From Candidatus Bathyarchaeota archaeon (GTDB taxonomy: Archaea > Thermoproteota > CALKCG01 > B24 > DRYS01): 64,000 bases of DNA. Positions 2,883 to 14,005 of this stretch are shown in pieces. A program made the translations under genes and the position numbers. The notes under the pieces were generated by a model. That model ran no database searches. It had not been told where the DNA came from and saw only the letters and a program-made list of their open reading frames with translations. Position 1 is the stretch's first letter. Each line of letters opens with the position of its first letter. The stretch is taken from assembly GCA_018396535.1 (NCBI GenBank), contig JAGTQC010000002.1, forward strand, positions 1 to 64,000, given 5' to 3'.

Positions 2883-4412
2883 ATGAATAGTGGAAGAGGC
2901 ATTGAGACAATGAGAAGTTACGAAGAGATTAACAAGAAGATTAAGCATGGTGATGTAGTAGTCCTAACAGCGGATGAATATGCTAGGCTAGCAGAAGATA
3001 AAGGATGGGAGAAAGCTTCCAAGGAGGTGGATATAGTTACTACAGGTACCTTCGGAGCTATGTGTAGTAGTGGCGCATTCCTTAACTTCGGTCATACAGA
3101 GCCCCCGATGAAGATGTACCGATGCTGGCTTAACGATGTACCAGCCTATAAGGGGTTGGCGGCCGTAGATGCGTATATAGGTGCTACAGCTATGAGCGAA
3201 ACTAGACCGTTTGAGTATGGTGGTGGACATGTTATAGAGGATCTAGTAGCTGGTAGAGAGGTTGAGCTTAGAGCTGAAGCTTATGGAACTGATTGCTATC
3301 CTAGGAGGTATCTCGAAACATCTATAACCATATACGATCTCAACCAAGCTATACTGGTTAACCCTAGGAATGCTTATCAACGCTATAACGCTGCTACCAA
3401 TTCTACCGATAGAGTTCTATACACATATATGGGTACGCTTCTTCCATATTATGGTAACGTAACCTTTAGCGGTTCAGGTGTTTTAAGCCCGCTATACAAG
3501 GACCTATACTTAGAGACTATAGGTATAGGTACACGTATATTCTTAGGTGGAGGAATAGGGTATATCATAGGCGAGGGTACACAACATAATCCTGGTGCAG
3601 CTATGTCCACTATTATGGTTAAAGGTGATCTTAAGAAGATGAATCCAAGGTATCTCAGAGGCGCATCGATCTATAGGTATGGTACTACTATGTATGTTGG
3701 TTTAGGTATAGCTATACCGTTAATAAACGAGAGGGTTGCTAAAACCGCTGCTCTAAAGGATGAGGAGATATACACGGATATAGTGGATTATGGGGTCCCA
3801 TCTAGAAGTAGACCATCTGTACGTAGGGTCAGCTATGCTGAATTAAAAACTGGTCGCGTAGTCATAAACGATAGGACGGTTAGGGTTTCACCCTTATCCA
3901 GCGTGAAGTTGGCTATGGAGATAGCTTATACGCTTAAGAAGTGGATAGAAAACGGAATCTTCTACCTATCTAGACCTATCGAGCTTCTACCACTAGATAC
4001 TGTTTTTAAACCTCTAGAAGTTAGGAGGAGGGAGCCTAGGGTTTTCGAAGTTATGCGTCGAGATATACCGACTATAAGATCTGATGAGGATTTGAGGAAT
4101 ACAGCTAGGATACTCATAGAACGTGGTATCGATCATCTACCAGTGGTGGATGATAGAGGTAGGCTTATAGGTATAGTGACTAGCTGGGATTTAGCTAGAG
4201 CTCTAGCCTATGGCAAGATGAGGTTGGAGGATATCATGACTAGACATGTCATAACAGCTACACCCTACGAGCCTATACACAGTGTGGTTGCTAAGATGGA
4301 GAGGTACAATATATCTGGTCTACCAGTAGTGGATGAAGAGAATAGAGTTCTAGGTCTGGTAACTGCGGATGATATATCCCGTAGATATGTTGTAAGAGGT
4401 GGGATACCTTGA
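2883..4412 (+). CDS. DUF39 homocysteine-biosynthesis sulfurtransferase with C-terminal CBS pair
   Basis: Residues about 10-390 are a DUF39 domain, the L-aspartate-semialdehyde sulfurtransferase family of anaerobic archaea that makes homocysteine by persulfide chemistry. The two conserved family cysteines appear to be Cys61 (in [12 protein letters not shown]) and Cys138 (in GTDCYPRRY). Two CBS domains follow (about 395-450 and 455-505), which in this family are thought to bind an adenosyl ligand such as SAM. The gene overlaps the NIL-ferredoxin gene by four bases (TTGA), the usual partner arrangement, so the pair likely acts as one enzyme. Starts are possible at 2883 or at the ATG at 2910, where family similarity begins ([10 protein letters not shown]). 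Function by family: strong; substrate in this organism: inferred. Confidence 0.88.
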
Positions 4413-4804
4413 GGTTTAAGCTTACATTCCCTAAGGAGCTTGCTGATAAACCTGTATTCTCCGAAGCTATATTAAGGTTTCATAGACCCTTCAATATAAT
4501 AGAAGCGGATGTAGATGCTGAGAAGGGGGTTATAGTAGCATCTACAGATCTACCCGAAGACGATGTGATGGAGCTTGTAAAATTCTTCGAGGAGAGGGGT
4601 GTTAGGGTAGAACTCCTAGCTAAGCTACTAGAAGTTGATCTAGAGAAGTGTATAAGTTGTGGTGCATGCGTAAGTCTATGCCCGGTGGAGGCTATAAGTA
4701 TAGCTAGGGATTGGAGCGTAGTCTTCGATGAAGAGAAGTGTGTAGCATGCGGTTTATGCGTGAACGCATGCCCTGTACGTGCTTTAAAACTCAGCATACA
4801 TTAA
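4409..4804 (+). CDS. NIL domain plus 2x[4Fe-4S] ferredoxin, partner of the DUF39 protein
   Basis: The 131-residue protein has an N-terminal NIL domain (about 1-75) and a two-cluster ferredoxin domain: Cys81, 84, 87, 91 and Cys111, 114, 117, 121. This architecture is the known companion of DUF39 proteins and is thought to supply electrons or sulfur for persulfide transfer to aspartate semialdehyde. The start is a TTG whose last two bases are the TG of the upstream TGA, giving a four-base overlap and probable translational coupling. No other start fits the NIL domain. Confidence 0.9.
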
Positions 4805-4838: not shown

Positions 4839-5885
4839 ATGTTTCTAAACCTATTCATGCTACCAAGCTATAAGACATGCCGTATGCTATACGCATCGAC
4901 TACGCATCCTATAGATGGGGGTAAGCATAGAGACTGGGTTTCTATACCATCGGGTGAGAAGTATACAGTGCTGGATGTTGATGGATGTGGATATGTAGCG
5001 TCTATATGGTTTACTATAAGCTCGAGGGATAGATACGTTCTACGTAATACTATACTCAATATATACTGGGATGGAGAGTCTAAGCCTAGTGTAGATACCC
5101 CTATAGGCGACTTTGTAGGCGTAGGTTTTGGTGAGTATAAACACCATAACTCCCTACTTACTGGTGAAACTAGTGGTGGATATTATAGCTTCATACCGAT
5201 GCCGTTCTCTAAAAGTTGTAGAGTAGAGTTCATCAATCGAGGTTTTGAACCGATACGTAGCCTATACGTTATGCTAGGATACTACCTATTTGATGAATAT
5301 CATGGATGCGATGTTAGATTTCATGCTAAATGGCGTAGGGAGAATCCCACCGAGGAGGGGAAGCCATACACTATACTTGAAGCTGAGGGGTCAGGCTTCT
5401 ATATAGGTACTAGACTAGATATGAGCCCTATAAATAAGAGTCATGGATTCACCTATCTGGAGGGAAACTTCGAGTTTATAGTCGATGGATGTAGGGATCT
5501 ATCATATGGATCTACAGGAACTGAGGATTATTTTCTGAGCGGATGGTATTTCATACATGGCGTATACGCTGCAGCTACTCACGGATTACTCATTAAGGAT
5601 GAACATAGATACAGGACATCATGCTATAGATATCATGTATTCGATCCTATACCATTCCGTAGAAGTATAACGGTTAGGGTACATCATGGAGAATATGATG
5701 AAGTACCTACAGACTACTCTAGTGTAGCATACTGGTATCAATGCGAGCCGCATAGGGATTTCGGTAAGCTATGCGTAGAGGAGGATCGCATACCTAGAGA
5801 GGAGTTTACAGATATGATGAAAACTGTCTACGGCAAGCCTTCGATAGAGTATGAGCATGTTAAAGGCTTAGAAGAGGTATTATAG
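4839..5885 (+). CDS. DUF2961 / GH172-family protein (furanosidase-type)
   Basis: A 348-residue cytosolic protein of the DUF2961 family, now classified as glycoside hydrolase family 172 (fructofuranosidases and D-arabinofuranosidases). Recognisable blocks are DTPIGDFVGVGFG (residues 86-98), a GETSGGYYSFIPMPF segment (109-123) and STGTEDYFLSGWYF (225-238), the acidic GTEDYF block being a probable catalytic element. No signal peptide or membrane segment is present, so it would act on intracellular or imported sugars. It sits 34 bases after the homocysteine pair but is probably unrelated to it. Substrate cannot be read from sequence. Confidence 0.8.
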   Translation: MFLNLFMLPSYKTCRMLYASTTHPIDGGKHRDWVSIPSGEKYTVLDVDGCGYVASIWFTISSRDRYVLRNTILNIYWDGESKPSVDTPIGDFVGVGFGEYKHHNSLLTGETSGGYYSFIPMPFSKSCRVEFINRGFEPIRSLYVMLGYYLFDEYHGCDVRFHAKWRRENPTEEGKPYTILEAEGSGFYIGTRLDMSPINKSHGFTYLEGNFEFIVDGCRDLSYGSTGTEDYFLSGWYFIHGVYAAATHGLLIKDEHRYRTSCYRYHVFDPIPFRRSITVRVHHGEYDEVPTDYSSVAYWYQCEPHRDFGKLCVEEDRIPREEFTDMMKTVYGKPSIEYEHVKGLEEVL

Positions 5886-5906: not shown

Positions 5907-6626
5907 CTATCGTAACCGTCTAGATACGCTTAGTATCTTAGGATTCCATCCTATACAGCCTACATACCCGCCAACTACGATAAAGCATCCCTTAACACCG
6001 GGTATACTATAGGTCTCTCTTAAAGCATATTCGATACTATCCTTAGATACACTATCTACTAGGTTGCATAACCTAGTAGCGGCTGCATCAGCTAGAGCTG
6101 CGTTTTCAGCGAAGACCGTAGCTAGATCAGCTATACCGAAGCTTATTCCTCCACCATGCCTAGCTGAGCTTGAAGCTACACCTAGAGGTGTATCGCATGG
6201 ATCGATTTCGAAATATATATAATCCAATTCATCTGATCCTATATAAGCTTCTAAGACTATAGGTATAGTAGATACTATGGAAGCTTCACCCCCATTCTCA
6301 GCTATAGCTACACTGGCATCTAATTCAAGCATAGATTCGCATATCAGATCGGCTAAAGCACCTGCGACTGAAGCGAGGGGTCCTACACCTGCTATCGATG
6401 AGGCTGATACCATACGTTTGACTACTTCAGGCATACCATCATCTATATCTATAGGGTCTAGAACATACTTTATCCAAGGATTGGATGATACGTAATCCTC
6501 AAGCTCTATCCTCCTAGCTAGGAAAGTCTTGAATCCATAATCTATGGCTGCTATGTTATCGGATCTAAGTCTGAGTATACTCTCCTTATACCTATACCTC
6601 TTCTCGTATATCTTAATGGACTTCAA
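5907..6626 (-). CDS. UPF0280 family protein (ApbE-like fold)
   Basis: The 239-residue product matches UPF0280, a mostly archaeal family structurally related to the flavin transferase ApbE, function unproven. Conserved features include MVSASSIAGVGPLASVAGAL (residues about 71-90), the ENGGEA motif and the Ala/Gly-rich block beginning SSSARHGGGISFGIAD. It starts at a TTG that overlaps the TGA of tiaS by four bases (6623-6626), so the two are translationally coupled. There are no membrane segments. I infer a cofactor- or RNA-modification-related role only from the neighbourhood. Confidence 0.8.
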   Translation of the reverse strand: MKSIKIYEKRYRYKESILRLRSDNIAAIDYGFKTFLARRIELEDYVSSNPWIKYVLDPIDIDDGMPEVVKRMVSASSIAGVGPLASVAGALADLICESMLELDASVAIAENGGEASIVSTIPIVLEAYIGSDELDYIYFEIDPCDTPLGVASSSARHGGGISFGIADLATVFAENAALADAAATRLCNLVDSVSKDSIEYALRETYSIPGVKGCFIVVGGYVGCIGWNPKILSVSRRLR

Positions 6627-7945
6627 GGCTCATGCCACGGATAGAACCATACAACTCCTCCAGTCTTCTCCCTACCATACCTCTCTATAGGTTTAGTTAA
6701 ATGTCTAAAAGCTCTAGGTGGTGGTAGATATAGGCCCGGCTTCAGATCTCTATCCATGTAGATCTCTATCTTAGCCGACCCTCTATCTCTGAAACCACAT
6801 CTACCACATCTGAAGCCTTTACCTAAACCCGCACTCTTCATCCTCCTACCACAATACGGACATAGTGGATTCATAATTCTGGTGATAGCCCTAGCTTCTA
6901 AAACCTCTATCTTCTCGATATTGAATGTTAATCCTTTATCGAATGGTTTAACACCCCCATACACTCTAACCCTATCCCCGTCTACAAGTTTCGATGCTAT
7001 AACCCTCAATCTACCTGTAGGTTCGTATACAGCACAATCTATAGTACCAGTACCATCGCTAAGCTTGAATATTACATGCCCTCCAGGTATGATCCTAGGT
7101 CTATCTGAAACTACACCTTCCAATACTGCTGCTACATAGGGTTTCAGAGATGATATCGTACGTTTACTCTTTAGATGAGCATCGGTACACTGATTACTCC
7201 TAAATATAACCCACCTCTCCACTTCTTCGTAGGATTTTATAAACCTATGCGCTCTATAAACCGCTTCAGGCGTCTCTCCTCTTATACCGTAGAGTACTGG
7301 ATCCATCCCTCTAGGTGTTACGAGAATCCTACCAGTCTCAGGATCTATATTCGCATATGTTTCGCCTCTCGTAGCCTCATCCATAGCTATAACAGATCCC
7401 GGATCTATCATTCTAGGCTTACCACGCATAGAAAACGTTCGATAAGCTATAAGCTCATACGTATAGTCTCCTCTAAGATCTTCACCTATAGCTGCTAAAG
7501 CTCCTACCAATCCTCGCGGATTTCTGAATACCCATCTAGCCACTCCTAAGCTATCAGCTAGTTTTAAAGCATACTCTACATCCACAACTTCTGTTTCAGC
7601 TAGATAGGCGAAACGTCTAAGCTCATCGGTTATACAGCCCCTATACACTGCTAGCACCGGATCTACATTCTCATCATCGATCATAGACTCCTTCTCGATA
7701 ACTTTCAAAGCTACATCTACAACGTCATCGATCATAGACTTATCTACCTCGAATCTGAGTGATACAGCTCCATTACCCCTAGTTTTCCACGGTATATTAG
7801 GGTTAAGCCTTACTAGGTTAGGATAATCCATCCATGAAACACCGAGCTTCGAATACTCGTAGACTAGTAGAGCAGCTATATACGTTGTACAACCACCCTT
7901 CATAGAATCTGTATCATCTATCCCTAGATGCAGCTTTACATTCAT
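6623..7945 (-). CDS. tiaS: tRNA(Ile2) 2-agmatinylcytidine synthetase TiaS
   Basis: Archaeal TiaS attaches agmatine to C34 of tRNA-Ile(CAU) using ATP, so that the tRNA reads AUA instead of AUG. The 440-residue product shows the N-terminal LHLGIDDTDSMKGGCTTYIA block (residues 5-24), the central domain, an OB fold (about 270-350) and a four-cysteine zinc ribbon (Cys362, 365, 380, 383) near the C-terminus, the full family architecture. ATA is a dominant Ile codon in this window, which makes this enzyme important for this genome. First gene of a two-gene unit with UPF0280 (TTGA overlap). Confidence 0.94.
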   Translation of the reverse strand: MNVKLHLGIDDTDSMKGGCTTYIAALLVYEYSKLGVSWMDYPNLVRLNPNIPWKTRGNGAVSLRFEVDKSMIDDVVDVALKVIEKESMIDDENVDPVLAVYRGCITDELRRFAYLAETEVVDVEYALKLADSLGVARWVFRNPRGLVGALAAIGEDLRGDYTYELIAYRTFSMRGKPRMIDPGSVIAMDEATRGETYANIDPETGRILVTPRGMDPVLYGIRGETPEAVYRAHRFIKSYEEVERWVIFRSNQCTDAHLKSKRTISSLKPYVAAVLEGVVSDRPRIIPGGHVIFKLSDGTGTIDCAVYEPTGRLRVIASKLVDGDRVRVYGGVKPFDKGLTFNIEKIEVLEARAITRIMNPLCPYCGRRMKSAGLGKGFRCGRCGFRDRGSAKIEIYMDRDLKPGLYLPPPRAFRHLTKPIERYGREKTGGVVWFYPWHEP

Positions 7946-9357: not shown

Positions 9358-10764
9358 TTAAACATTTAGCCCTTGATCATGAATCTTCAAAGCTTCTAGA
9401 AGTTTCCTACCCTTCTCAGATATACGGTAGTATCTCCTACCATCCGATACATAGGAGGTTATCAACCCCTCAAACTCGAGCCTCTCTAGATGCTGATATA
9501 CAGCTTGTAGACTTACGATCCCGCCTAGACTTTTCCATACTTCATATCCGTATCTAGGTTTAGATGATAGAAGCTCTAGTATCCTCGTCTTCATAGGCTT
9601 CCCACCATATAGGATCGTAGCCTTCCTACGCCTACCTGGTACTTCGATTAGAGAAGCTGTTTTAAGACCGCTACTCGTAGCTATACATACGATAACATCG
9701 CCTTTATCTACGATGTTATCCTCTATCAATCTTCTAACAGCTGCTATGCTAGATGCACTAGAGAACTCTGCGAATATGCCTTCACACCTCGCTAACAGTA
9801 TCATGGATTTCATTATCTCAGAATCTGAGACTGTCAACGCCCATCCTCCACTATCCCTCAACGCTTTAACAGCGATATCTATCAGTACTGGCTTAGATAC
9901 TAGCAGAGCTAAAGCTTTAGATAGAGGCCTCCTTTCCCATCTATCCTCACCCCCTCTAAACTTATCTACTATAGGATGTAGACTCTCAGTCTGTACGCAT
10001 ACAAGCCTAGGGATGTCATCTATCAAACCCGCAGCTTCAAGCTCCTTGAACCCCTTCCATAGAGATACGAGTAGGCTTCCACCCCCTACAGGTACTACTA
10101 CGATATCGGGTACACCCATCTCCTCCCATATCTCGAAAGCTATAGTCTTCAAAGCTTCGAATGTCAATGCGTTAAGCTCTGGTGTAGCTTGATACCATCC
10201 GCTACCGTATGTAATCTTAGAGATGTACTCTATAGCTTCATCTACGTACACCCCATACTCTATTATATCTGCTCCGTACGCTATCATCTGCGCTAGCTTC
10301 CCCTCATCTACATATCTAGGTATGACTATATGCGCATGTAGACTTGCTCTCCTAGCGTATGCAGCTAACGATGCACCCATATTACCATTGGAGGCGGCTG
10401 CTACATGTTTAAACCCATAGCGTAGTGCATCGGTAGTTAATATGGATGCACATCTATCTCTAAACGATCCAGTTGGATTCCTCCCCTCATCCTTTATGTA
10501 TAGGTTTCCAACACCTAGAAGCCTCCCTAAACTTTCAGCTTTAATCGTAGGGGTAAATCCCTCGGATAATGTTATAATCCTAGCGTATATCGTAGGTATA
10601 CACGAGGCATACCTCCATATGGAGTGGATATCCTGCTCAACCTTAAACTCGTATACATCCTCCATATCGTATAACAATGTCGATCCGCATCTAACGCATC
10701 TACTCCAAGGCTTAGCATCACCATTCTCCAAACCACATAAGGGGCACTTCAACCTATATTTCAA
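9358..10764 (-). CDS. Threonine-synthase-like protein lacking the PLP lysine, fused to a winged helix
   Basis: Residues 1-388 are a threonine synthase-type fold-II PLP protein: N-terminal zinc ribbon (Cys7, 10, 23, 26), the GRNPTGSFRDR loop (95-104), the Asn loop ASNGNMGASLAAYA (124-137), the phosphate loop PVGGGSLL and a C-terminal TSSGLKTA. In threonine synthases the loop reads SFKDR and its lysine forms the PLP Schiff base; here residue 102 is Arg (codon AGA) and the following DRG is DRC. Residues 389-462 form a PadR/MarR-like winged helix (KTRILELLSSKPRYGYEVW ... DGRRYYRISEKGRKLLE). It is therefore more likely a ligand-sensing transcription regulator than an enzyme. TTG start, overlapping the gatE stop by four bases (TTGA), implies co-expression with the Glu-tRNA amidotransferase. 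Confidence 0.85.
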   Translation of the reverse strand: MKYRLKCPLCGLENGDAKPWSRCVRCGSTLLYDMEDVYEFKVEQDIHSIWRYASCIPTIYARIITLSEGFTPTIKAESLGRLLGVGNLYIKDEGRNPTGSFRDRCASILTTDALRYGFKHVAAASNGNMGASLAAYARRASLHAHIVIPRYVDEGKLAQMIAYGADIIEYGVYVDEAIEYISKITYGSGWYQATPELNALTFEALKTIAFEIWEEMGVPDIVVVPVGGGSLLVSLWKGFKELEAAGLIDDIPRLVCVQTESLHPIVDKFRGGEDRWERRPLSKALALLVSKPVLIDIAVKALRDSGGWALTVSDSEIMKSMILLARCEGIFAEFSSASSIAAVRRLIEDNIVDKGDVIVCIATSSGLKTASLIEVPGRRRKATILYGGKPMKTRILELLSSKPRYGYEVWKSLGGIVSLQAVYQHLERLEFEGLITSYVSDGRRYYRISEKGRKLLEALKIHDQGLNV

Positions 10765-12665
10765 CCGATAATCCTCCTAATCTCATCCTCGATAATCTTA
10801 GCTAGAATAGATGTATCAACCCTACCCCTATACTTCTTCATGATAGATCCAAGTATCATCTTAGCAGCATTCAAACCATGCCTCTCTATAAGACTCCTAC
10901 TCCTAGAAACTTCATCTGATACGATAGCCGAGAGCTCCTCGCTTGTTAAAGGCTTTAGCTTAAGCTCTTCTATAGCCTCAGTTATACTAGCACCACTACC
11001 AGCTATGTATGCGAGGATATCTGGTATAGCTTCCTTAAACAGCCTCCCCTCAGCTATAGATCTGAATAGATCGTATAATCTATCAGATGGTATGCGATCG
11101 ATATTAACACCCCTCCTCTTCAACATAGTCATAGTCTCTGTTAGCGTCGAAGCTACTACTGAAGCTGGTAGTGAAGGGAAGCTTCTACAAACCTCCTTGA
11201 ATAGATTCTCATAGATGGAGTTAACAAGCTCCTCAGCTAGCTTTCTACTCAACCCATACTCTTCGATATACCTTTTAACCCTTATCGATGGGAGTTCAGG
11301 TAGGTTGGATTTCAAACGTTCTACCCTAGCAGGATCGACTACTAGTATAGGTATATCTGTCTCAGGATACATACGTGCAGCTCCAGGTCTGGGACGCATA
11401 TACCTAGTTATACCGGTAGGTTCAGCTCTCCTAGTTTCTTCAGGTACCCCATCGAACGCTACTAGAATCCTATCCAATACCGCTTTCAACCCATCTTCGA
11501 CATTCTCCTTCGGCCCAGCTGCTATGATCACAGCATCCTGCTCATATGCACCTACAGTTCTTCTAAGCTCTTCCACTTCCCTATCCGTTATACCGTAACC
11601 TGGGAGCTCATCTGTATGGAATATACCACCCAGCCTACCCCAGAATATAGCATAATCCGCGAGTTCTGTCCCGAATCTCAACCCCTCGTTTAATCTCCAC
11701 GATAATAATCCTCTAAACCCAGGTAGCTTCAAAGCATAGATGACGCCACCGTTACCTATAGCTTTAGCTAGAATCCTACATCCAGTCTTCCTGAATACAT
11801 CAGTTACATCATAGAATGTAGGATCTATGGAATCCTTAGATAACCCCCTCCTCCTCAACTCCTCCCTAAGTTCTAGTAGCCTAACCTGTCTCTCAACCTC
11901 ATTCTCGACAACCTTAGGTATAAGGCTTAGATGTTGTACACCTTTAACCTCTACTAAAGCCCCCTCTCTAATCGATATATTTATATCCTGTCTTATAGAT
12001 CCAAGCTCACCCTTCACCCTACCTGTCGATAAGACTATCCTACCTATAGCTAAAGCCACCATACCTGCTTCCTCAGGGCTGCGTATATCTGGGCTTGTAG
12101 ATACTTCGACTAGAGGTATCCCCAGCCTATCCAGTCTATAGTAGACTTTATCACCACTCCTCTCAAGTATACGTGCAGCATCCTCTTCTAGACATATACT
12201 TTGTATACCGATCCGTTTACCATCGATATCCGTCCATCCGCCTAGAGCTACTACGCACGTCCTCTGGAACCCTGTAGTATTGGATCCATCGATTACAACC
12301 TTCCTCATAACATGTATCTCATCTACAGGTTTAGCATTCAGCATCAAAGCTATAGTTAACGCTATATCTACAGCCTCCTCGTTTATAGCATGAGGAGGCT
12401 CTTCATCAAGCTCAACTAGACATGAAGAGTTATCATCGGCTTCGTAGACTATAGTTAATCCTTTACGAAACTCGAATAAAGCTGCAGGATCAACCTCGCC
12501 TAACTCGCTTTGAGTAGGTCTAAGTCTTCTTTCAAACTTAAGCTTAGCCTCACCCTCTGATAGAGCTGCGGGGCATCTGCAGAAGAGCTTGTAGCTAGTA
12601 GCTAGCTGGAAGTGTAATTCTAAGCCTACCTTTAAGCCTAGGTCTTCATAGTTGAAGCCGCTCAT
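10761..12665 (-). CDS. gatE: Glu-tRNA(Gln) amidotransferase subunit E
   Basis: GatE phosphorylates and transamidates Glu-tRNA(Gln) together with GatD, the archaeal route to Gln-tRNA. The roughly 634-residue product shows the GatB/E catalytic blocks (KVGLELHFQL, LFCRCP, VDPAALFEF, TGFQRTCVVALGG, RLGIPLVEVST), the GatE-specific AspRS-like insertion, and the C-terminal YqeY-like helical tail (about 500-634). I place the start at the ATG at 12665, three bases after the gatD stop; an upstream in-frame start at 12680 would overlap gatD. Length matches family members. Confidence 0.95.
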   Translation of the reverse strand: MSGFNYEDLGLKVGLELHFQLATSYKLFCRCPAALSEGEAKLKFERRLRPTQSELGEVDPAALFEFRKGLTIVYEADDNSSCLVELDEEPPHAINEEAVDIALTIALMLNAKPVDEIHVMRKVVIDGSNTTGFQRTCVVALGGWTDIDGKRIGIQSICLEEDAARILERSGDKVYYRLDRLGIPLVEVSTSPDIRSPEEAGMVALAIGRIVLSTGRVKGELGSIRQDINISIREGALVEVKGVQHLSLIPKVVENEVERQVRLLELREELRRRGLSKDSIDPTFYDVTDVFRKTGCRILAKAIGNGGVIYALKLPGFRGLLSWRLNEGLRFGTELADYAIFWGRLGGIFHTDELPGYGITDREVEELRRTVGAYEQDAVIIAAGPKENVEDGLKAVLDRILVAFDGVPEETRRAEPTGITRYMRPRPGAARMYPETDIPILVVDPARVERLKSNLPELPSIRVKRYIEEYGLSRKLAEELVNSIYENLFKEVCRSFPSLPASVVASTLTETMTMLKRRGVNIDRIPSDRLYDLFRSIAEGRLFKEAIPDILAYIAGSGASITEAIEELKLKPLTSEELSAIVSDEVSRSRSLIERHGLNAAKMILGSIMKKYRGRVDTSILAKIIEDEIRRIIG

Positions 12666-12667
12666 AT

Positions 12668-14005
12668 CTAGGTATACCACCTAAAACTTGTCCTAACAGA
12701 TATCTCTCCAGCTATATTCGTAAGCATAAGGCTTCTAGCTTCATCCATACTGCTTGCTCTAGCTAGAACCCACATAAGCTTAACTAGAGCTGTCTCAGGA
12801 AGCATATCCTCTAGGGGTACTACACCTATTGCTTGAAGCTCACGTCCAGTCCTATATACATTCATATTAACTCTACCCCATATACATTGTGAAGTCATAC
12901 CTACGAATACACCTGAATCTATAGCTCTCTTAATCGAAGGTATACATCTATTAGAAACGTGGCCTAGACCTGTACCCTCGATAATAATACCTCTATAACC
13001 TCTATCTACATACCAATCTATGATACTAGGATCGAAGCCTGGGTAAAACTTAACCAGTGTAACCTTATCTTCGAAATCTGCTTCAATCTTAAACCCTTCG
13101 ATCCCACCTCTTCTCCTATAATCCTCGACTAGCATCCTAATCTCGCAACTATTATAGACTGCTATAGGATCACCGTTAACCGATTTGAAAGCATCCCTCC
13201 TACTAGTATGGCATTTACGTACCCTTGTCCCTCTATGAAAGACTATCTCATCATCTGATAAACCTCTATGCATAGCTACGACCACCTCTGCAAAAGGTGC
13301 TTTAGCAGCAGCCGTCGCAGCGCCTAGGAGGTTTAGAGCAGCATCAGAGCTAGGCCTATCAGGCGATCTCTGTGCTCCTACGAGTACCACAGGTACGGGT
13401 AGGTTCCTCAGAGCAAAACTTAGTGCGGCAGCCGTATACCCCATAGTATCTGTTCCATGAGTTACGACCACACCCTTAACCCCACTCTCTACGTATTCAC
13501 CTATCTTCGATGCAATAGTAGACCAATGTCGAGGTGTCATATCCTCGCTAAATATGTTGAATATCGTTTCGACATCTATCCTAGCTATATCCGCAAGCTC
13601 GGGTGTAAACCCGTATAGATCGTCTGCTGAGAATATAGGTGTAACAGCACCTGTTCTATAATCTACACGGCTAGCTATAGTTCCACCCGTACCTAAGATA
13701 GCTATTCTCGGAAGATCGGCTTTAGCTTCGGGTATGGTTGGAGGCTTATACCTAACCTCCCTCCTAGCTGGAAGTTTTTCTACCTTTACATCACCGCTGG
13801 TTACCCTTATACCTATATTATACCCGCTCCTAAGCTTGATAACTATATATTCATCACCACCGTACTCGACCCTAGGAGCTAGTACGCCTTCGTATATGAT
13901 ACCATCCCTAATTATCCTTACCTCATCTCCAACTCTTACACCAGCTGATAGAAGTAGTTCCCTAGCTCGACCCTTATATCCTTGAAGATCTATACTCTCA
14001 CTCAA
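12668..14005 (-). CDS. gatD: Glu-tRNA(Gln) amidotransferase subunit D
   Basis: GatD is the asparaginase-like glutaminase that supplies ammonia to GatE. The 445-residue product has the small N-terminal GatD domain (about 20-80) and an L-asparaginase I-type domain with AILGTGGTIAS (catalytic Thr near 106-109), VVTHGTDTMGYTA (Thr185, Asp186) and a conserved Lys further on. It starts with TTG (14005) and is the first gene of the gatD-gatE-regulator unit. Confidence 0.95.
   Translation of the reverse strand: MSESIDLQGYKGRARELLLSAGVRVGDEVRIIRDGIIYEGVLAPRVEYGGDEYIVIKLRSGYNIGIRVTSGDVKVEKLPARREVRYKPPTIPEAKADLPRIAILGTGGTIASRVDYRTGAVTPIFSADDLYGFTPELADIARIDVETIFNIFSEDMTPRHWSTIASKIGEYVESGVKGVVVTHGTDTMGYTAAALSFALRNLPVPVVLVGAQRSPDRPSSDAALNLLGAATAAAKAPFAEVVVAMHRGLSDDEIVFHRGTRVRKCHTSRRDAFKSVNGDPIAVYNSCEIRMLVEDYRRRGGIEGFKIEADFEDKVTLVKFYPGFDPSIIDWYVDRGYRGIIIEGTGLGHVSNRCIPSIKRAIDSGVFVGMTSQCIWGRVNMNVYRTGRELQAIGVVPLEDMLPETALVKLMWVLARASSMDEARSLMLTNIAGEISVRTSFRWYT

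Follow-up and report, generated by a model that had tools for sequence, protein, structure and literature searches.

A threonine-synthase-like winged-helix protein without the PLP lysine as a probable vitamin B6-sensing regulator in Archaea

We describe a fused protein, annotated as threonine synthase, that is encoded in the window, i.e., the whole 64,000-nucleotide stretch of archaeal DNA analysed here, and that is probably a vitamin B6-sensing regulator rather than the annotated enzyme. Judging from its sequence and from the genomic surroundings of its relatives, we consider it likely that the fused protein acts as a PLP-sensing one-component transcription regulator of vitamin B6 supply, representing a fold-type II counterpart of MocR/PdxR. 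With a little less confidence, we also favour the view that it belongs to a new archaeal regulator class, in which a lysine-less fold-type II protein would sense PLP reversibly, repress its own gene, and activate either B6 uptake through an ECF transporter or B6 synthesis through pdxST.

The gene encodes 468 amino acids from a TTG start codon (Table 1). Its PALP domain was assigned with an E value of 2e-69, and its C-terminal domain qualifies as a PadR-family winged helix (PF03551), with an E value of 3e-10 and 40.4 bits against a gathering score of 27 bits. An AlphaFold model, computed from 24 aligned window and locus proteins, reached a pLDDT of 88.3 and comprises two well-predicted domains joined by a weakly predicted linker at residues 368-388. 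The best solved Foldseek matches of this model are the threonine synthases 6nmx, 2d1f, and 2zsj, and threonine synthases also head the phmmer matches. The N-terminal Cys4 ribbon is nearly invariant among the relatives and is present in ordinary archaeal ThrC as well. The fold-type II domain has the PLP phosphate loop and Asn loop of a catalytic threonine synthase, while the Schiff-base lysine of the SFKDR motif is missing: in the alignment to solved threonine synthases, the catalytic Lys aligns with Arg102, and the motif reads SFRDR. The AGA codon for Arg102, the retained zinc ribbon, Asn loop, and phosphate loop, and the C-terminal PadR-like winged helix had all been described in an earlier sequence-only reading of this DNA and are borne out here.

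Table 1. Positions in the window of the fused gene, its domains and the gat genes
Feature	Position	Strand	Basis
Fused protein: Lys-less threonine-synthase (PALP) domain with C-terminal PadR-like winged helix	9358..10764	-	
PadR-like winged helix, residues 395-457	9394..9582	-	Pfam, AlphaFold model
PALP / fold-type II domain, residues 64-363	9676..10575	-	Pfam
Codon 102, AGA (Arg), replacing the PLP Schiff-base lysine	10459..10461	-	Sequence and alignment
N-terminal Cys4 zinc-ribbon-like segment (C7, C10, C23, C26)	10687..10746	-	
gatE, stop overlapping the start of the fused gene	10761..12680	-	Sequence read directly
gatD, first gene of an apparent gatD-gatE-regulator operon	12668..14005	-	

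The loss of the lysine is a property of the family. The PLP lysine is absent from 83 of 88 fused homologues and present in all 37 unfused ThrC proteins compared; 39 rows had initially been classed as unfused by length, and the two of these that carry Arg are in fact fused proteins, one cut by a contig end and one short. Being common to 83 of the 88, the loss is neither chance nor a sequencing error. The pocket itself is kept, with N128 conserved in 87/88, G227 in 87/88, G229 in 88/88, T363 in 84/88, and G366 in 88/88 fused proteins. These positions correspond to the PLP contacts of threonine synthase structures: the SxGN-loop Asn, the glycines of the phosphate loop, and the Thr near the pyridine nitrogen. 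As read from the alignment, the pattern in the fused family is that of a retained PLP pocket and a predicted loss of the aldimine.

Phylogenetic analysis divided the fused proteins into two branches. Branch A comprises 46 rows, in which Arg prevails, and includes the window protein; branch B comprises 42 rows, in which Leu prevails and Lys never occurs. In the unrooted tree, the unfused ThrC proteins fall between the two. A single origin of the fused proteins would be compatible with this topology and is not demanded by it. One genome, G141, carries a regulator of each branch (L102 on contig C57 and L133 on contig C66). In G056, a second fused-type gene (C15:77583-78842) contains four in-frame stops and is apparently a pseudogene, an intact copy being present elsewhere in the same genome.

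In the window, gatE and the fused gene share 4 bases, with the TGA stop of the former overlapping the TTG start of the latter, in agreement with the translational arrangement behind gatD and gatE noted earlier. The order gatD-gatE-fused gene is kept, complete or cut by a contig end, in five of six other genomes of the same taxonomic order (L116, L127-L130); among the loci compared, it is absent from G003 (L105, same order) and from other orders. The window's genome (G000) also encodes a separate, active-looking ThrC with the SFKDR motif, located between thrB and hom, whose existence the earlier reading had proposed to check. The fused protein is thus not the sole ThrC of the pathway and need not make threonine. 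ThiC is present in this genome; PdxS and RibH were not found. The genome further holds a gene for an ECF substrate-binding (S) protein of family PF07155, away from the fused gene (C13:27394-27753), and import of B6 by the organism is probable, given this S gene and the lack of a detectable PdxS. Elsewhere in the window, the region 2883..4804 (+) encodes a 509-amino-acid protein that apparently contains CBS domains and, after it, a short ferredoxin-like protein; the two resemble the archaeal homocysteine-forming pair MA1821/MA1822. The protein encoded at 6623..7945 (-) resembles TiaS (tRNA-Ile2 agmatidine synthetase), judged by its start and zinc ribbon.

The gene neighbourhoods of the relatives point to vitamin B6. 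A PF07155 ECF S gene lies within 1.2 kb of the fused gene in 59 of 86 loci; in branch A it follows the fused gene in the same orientation in 32 of 44 loci, and in branch B it is divergent in 20 of 42. Seven f5 loci have the order regulator-S-ATPase-third gene, apparently a full S-A-T ECF transporter operon, in which the third protein has no family match and is assigned as the T component by position alone. The S proteins match a single PDB entry, 4HZU chain S, at an E value of 1e-14; this entry is HmpT (alias PdxU2), in line with the published account of the structure. The substrate reported for HmpT/PdxU2 is pyridoxamine (PMC4860826), and both PdxU and PdxU2/HmpT are listed under PF07155 (PMC9997740). 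In three branch-B loci (G034, G069, and G159), pdxS and pdxT, encoding PLP synthase, are divergent from the regulator. Many Bathyarchaeota-type loci also contain, after the S gene, a c3 gene whose product is AIR-synthase/HypE/ThiL-like and scores under all curated cut-offs (e.g., L123:5352-6359 and L034:7215-8243); it might act enzymatically on the vitamin after import.

These neighbourhoods also bear on the proposal of the sequence-only reading that the catalytically dead ThrC domain is a sensor of an amino acid such as threonine, or of O-phosphohomoserine, with the winged helix controlling threonine, methionine, or gatDE genes. The ThrC ancestry and the gatDE linkage in the window's order are consistent with this proposal, as are six f13 genomes in which the fused gene is adjacent and divergent to the true thrC. 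However, thrC linkage is confined to f13, where at least four of these loci contain a B6-family S gene as well, and most relatives adjoin S or pdxST. Moreover, four genomes encoding the fused protein (G058, G153, G159, and G177) have no other ThrC and no convincing ThrB. We therefore regard a sensor of an amino acid or O-phosphohomoserine as unlikely, and control of threonine or methionine genes is not favoured. What remains of the proposal is its core, an enzyme-derived sensor-regulator, which agrees with the Lys-less ThrC fold and the winged helix; it is the choice of ligand that the B6-linked relatives argue against.

A profile search of 300 Thermoproteota genomes found the regulator in 80, of which 78 have S and only 11 have PdxS. 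Across the 300 genomes, S and PdxS are largely mutually exclusive (both in 28, PdxS only in 116, S only in 135, neither in 21), with p-values for co-occurrence that ignore shared ancestry. As a control, RibH was found to exclude S as strongly as PdxS does; the PdxS effect on S persists within both RibH-positive and RibH-negative genomes, and the RibH effect persists likewise. Because RibH behaves like PdxS, co-occurrence by itself cannot name the vitamin, and we dropped the PdxS pattern as stand-alone proof of B6. This result, together with the name riboflavin transporter carried by PF07155, would accord with control of a different vitamin, riboflavin being the most likely one; the S protein would then import riboflavin, and the threonine-synthase fold would be only an inherited scaffold. 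We give this explanation little credence: it is opposed by the divergent pdxST in three genomes, an operator-like site before pdxS of G027, the retained PLP pocket, and HmpT as the sole solved relative of the S proteins, and no riboflavin gene was recognised beside the fused gene.

The database name raises the question of whether the protein remains catalytic, its winged helix being a regulatory tail, as would be the case for a threonine synthase that relies on a different lysine. The NCBIfam model PRK05638 (NF004170, 'threonine synthase') spans residues 5-459, including the winged helix, and scores 424.1 bits against a cut-off of 421 bits. The fusion architecture is already in databases, filed under this enzyme name. 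In addition, the five Lys-bearing fused proteins (L037, L039, L040, L041, and L131) form one clade within branch A that keeps SFKDR together with the winged helix and has an S gene nearby in three of five loci. In this clade, PLP may be bound covalently, or the lysine may have been regained. In the family as a whole, however, Lys is replaced by eight different residues (R 39, L 29, T 5, I 4, M 3, and one each of S, V, and A, against K 5). No replacement lysine for the aldimine was found in the alignment, since the conserved Lys91 and Lys368 occur in normal ThrC too. With a true ThrC beside thrB and hom in the same genome, we consider a catalytic role very unlikely. PRK05638 is probably a mis-named family, its name implying a catalysis that the aligned members examined argue against.

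Returning to the B6-regulator reading, we found a candidate operator in branch B, where regulator promoters contain TATATAAG-N6-CCTAYATATAGG upstream of the gene. With at most one mismatch, the palindrome CCTAYATATAGG occurs between -150 and +60 of the start in 18 of 88 regulator loci versus 3 of the 747 remaining gene starts of those loci, a contrast that is partly circular because the motif was discovered in these loci. Less circular is the genome-wide count of the composite, the palindrome with TATAAG-N6, which has 18 matches in the 300 genomes, all directly before a fused gene, versus none for a backward-pattern control; one of them, in G041, revealed a contig-cut regulator gene missed by the profile census. 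The palindrome also precedes S genes on contigs other than that of the regulator in G181 (exact), G048 (1 mismatch), and G027 (2 mismatches), as well as pdxS of G027, again on another contig (2 mismatches), and f9 S genes have the variant CCTTAATATAAGG. Among S genes not adjacent to a regulator, a site with at most two mismatches was present in 6 of 13 branch-B regulator genomes versus 1 of 31 regulator-less genomes (p 0.001), both groups being small and related by ancestry. In the regulator direction, the palindrome lies between the TATA box and the start codon, whereas, read towards S or pdxS, it is located about 6 bases upstream of a TATA-like element. That the palindrome belongs to a different regulator, with the fused gene merely one of its targets, is highly improbable: an exact CCTATATATAGG site does precede the PF07155 S gene of G217 (L237, G217:C20, ~1968), a 95% complete MAG in which the fused gene was not found, but G217 is alone in this among the 31 genomes without the fused gene, and the product of the fused gene has a winged helix of its own, with linkage of this gene to S seen in branch A as well as in branch B.

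The palindrome was seen only in branch B, whereas the window protein belongs to branch A, and a pattern search did not find it in the window's own genome. Like these points, the G217 site without a fused gene, the RibH pattern, and the five branch-A proteins that keep Lys count against the B6-regulator reading. Inspection by eye of branch-A upstream regions revealed no shared motif. In the window's genome and its sister G001, a perfect inverted repeat, ATATTAAAG-N6/7-CTTTAATAT (or with arms one base shorter), lies just before the S gene (L177 ~4926-4950 and L178 ~4928-4951). The strict pattern occurs in G001 only at this site, and neither the region upstream of gatD nor the rest of the window contains the repeat. 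It is a possible branch-A operator, which we treat as a weak lead.

In the simplest model, the protein represses its own gene and, under the control of PLP, activates or represses B6 acquisition, with a PLP effect of either sign. Reversible, non-catalytic binding of PLP or a different B6 vitamer is predicted for the ThrC-like domain, since the Schiff-base lysine is lost and the PLP pocket kept, and the PadR-like winged helix would bind the operator, with ligand occupancy altering DNA binding. The palindromic form of the site suggests binding as a dimer, as in PadR proteins. At its own promoter in the relatives, where the site lies between the TATA box and the start codon, such a dimer would block initiation, i.e., cause autorepression. 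Archaeal activators commonly act just upstream of a TATA-like element, and at the second target, an S gene for B6 uptake or pdxST, the site occupies a position that would suit activation. In the window's lineage, which has neither the palindrome nor adjacent B6 genes, the gene would have moved behind gatDE, and its presumed target would be the distant S gene. We infer DNA binding, PLP as the ligand, the direction of control, and the window protein's control of that S gene from these features, and the B6 function of the window protein is transferred from the branch-wide S linkage rather than drawn from local evidence.

Among known systems, MocR, GabR, and PdxR of the GntR subfamily are the closest in concept: they likewise combine a sensor derived from a PLP enzyme with a winged helix, and PdxR controls B6 supply. 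They keep the PLP lysine, and their N-terminal GntR winged helix and fold type I aminotransferase domain are both absent from the fused protein, in which a fold-type II domain precedes a C-terminal winged helix; the distinction from MocR/GabR drawn in the sequence-only reading thus holds. A PLP-responsive control of B6 genes, as in MocR/PdxR, is putative for the fused protein, for which gene linkage and operator-like sites were observed. Compared with the threonine synthases 6nmx, 2zsj, and 2d1f, the fused protein shares the fold and PLP-pocket residues, but it lacks the Schiff-base lysine, has an extra DNA-binding domain, and is mostly found outside a thr gene context. Its winged helix is alike in sequence to PadR-family regulators, differing in being the C-terminal domain of an enzyme-like sensor. 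Fold-type II PLP proteins have been recruited into signalling in CymR-CysK and CYSL-1/EGL-9, which are separate partner proteins, whereas the fused protein is a single DNA-binding chain. The MocR subfamily is reported to be absent from Archaea (PMC5320631).

Our literature search did not find a description of a threonine-synthase-like winged-helix regulator, or of a PLP-sensing regulator of B6 supply in Archaea. Because PLP-enzyme-derived regulators are known from MocR, the kind itself is already known; as far as the searched literature goes, the type II fold, domain order, lysine loss, and occurrence in Archaea are new. The earlier suggestion of a regulator is supported for the lysine-less winged-helix protein; the fusion as such is already included in PRK05638.

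B6 transporters are poorly known in general (PMC9997740). If our reading is true, it would provide not only a regulator but also the substrate of an entire archaeal ECF family and a testable operator, and the curated family PRK05638 would be giving archaeal regulators the name of threonine synthase. In addition, a PLP enzyme would have been turned into a transcription regulator a second time and independently, here by way of catalytic lysine loss, and Archaea would have invented on their own the role played in bacteria by MocR/PdxR.
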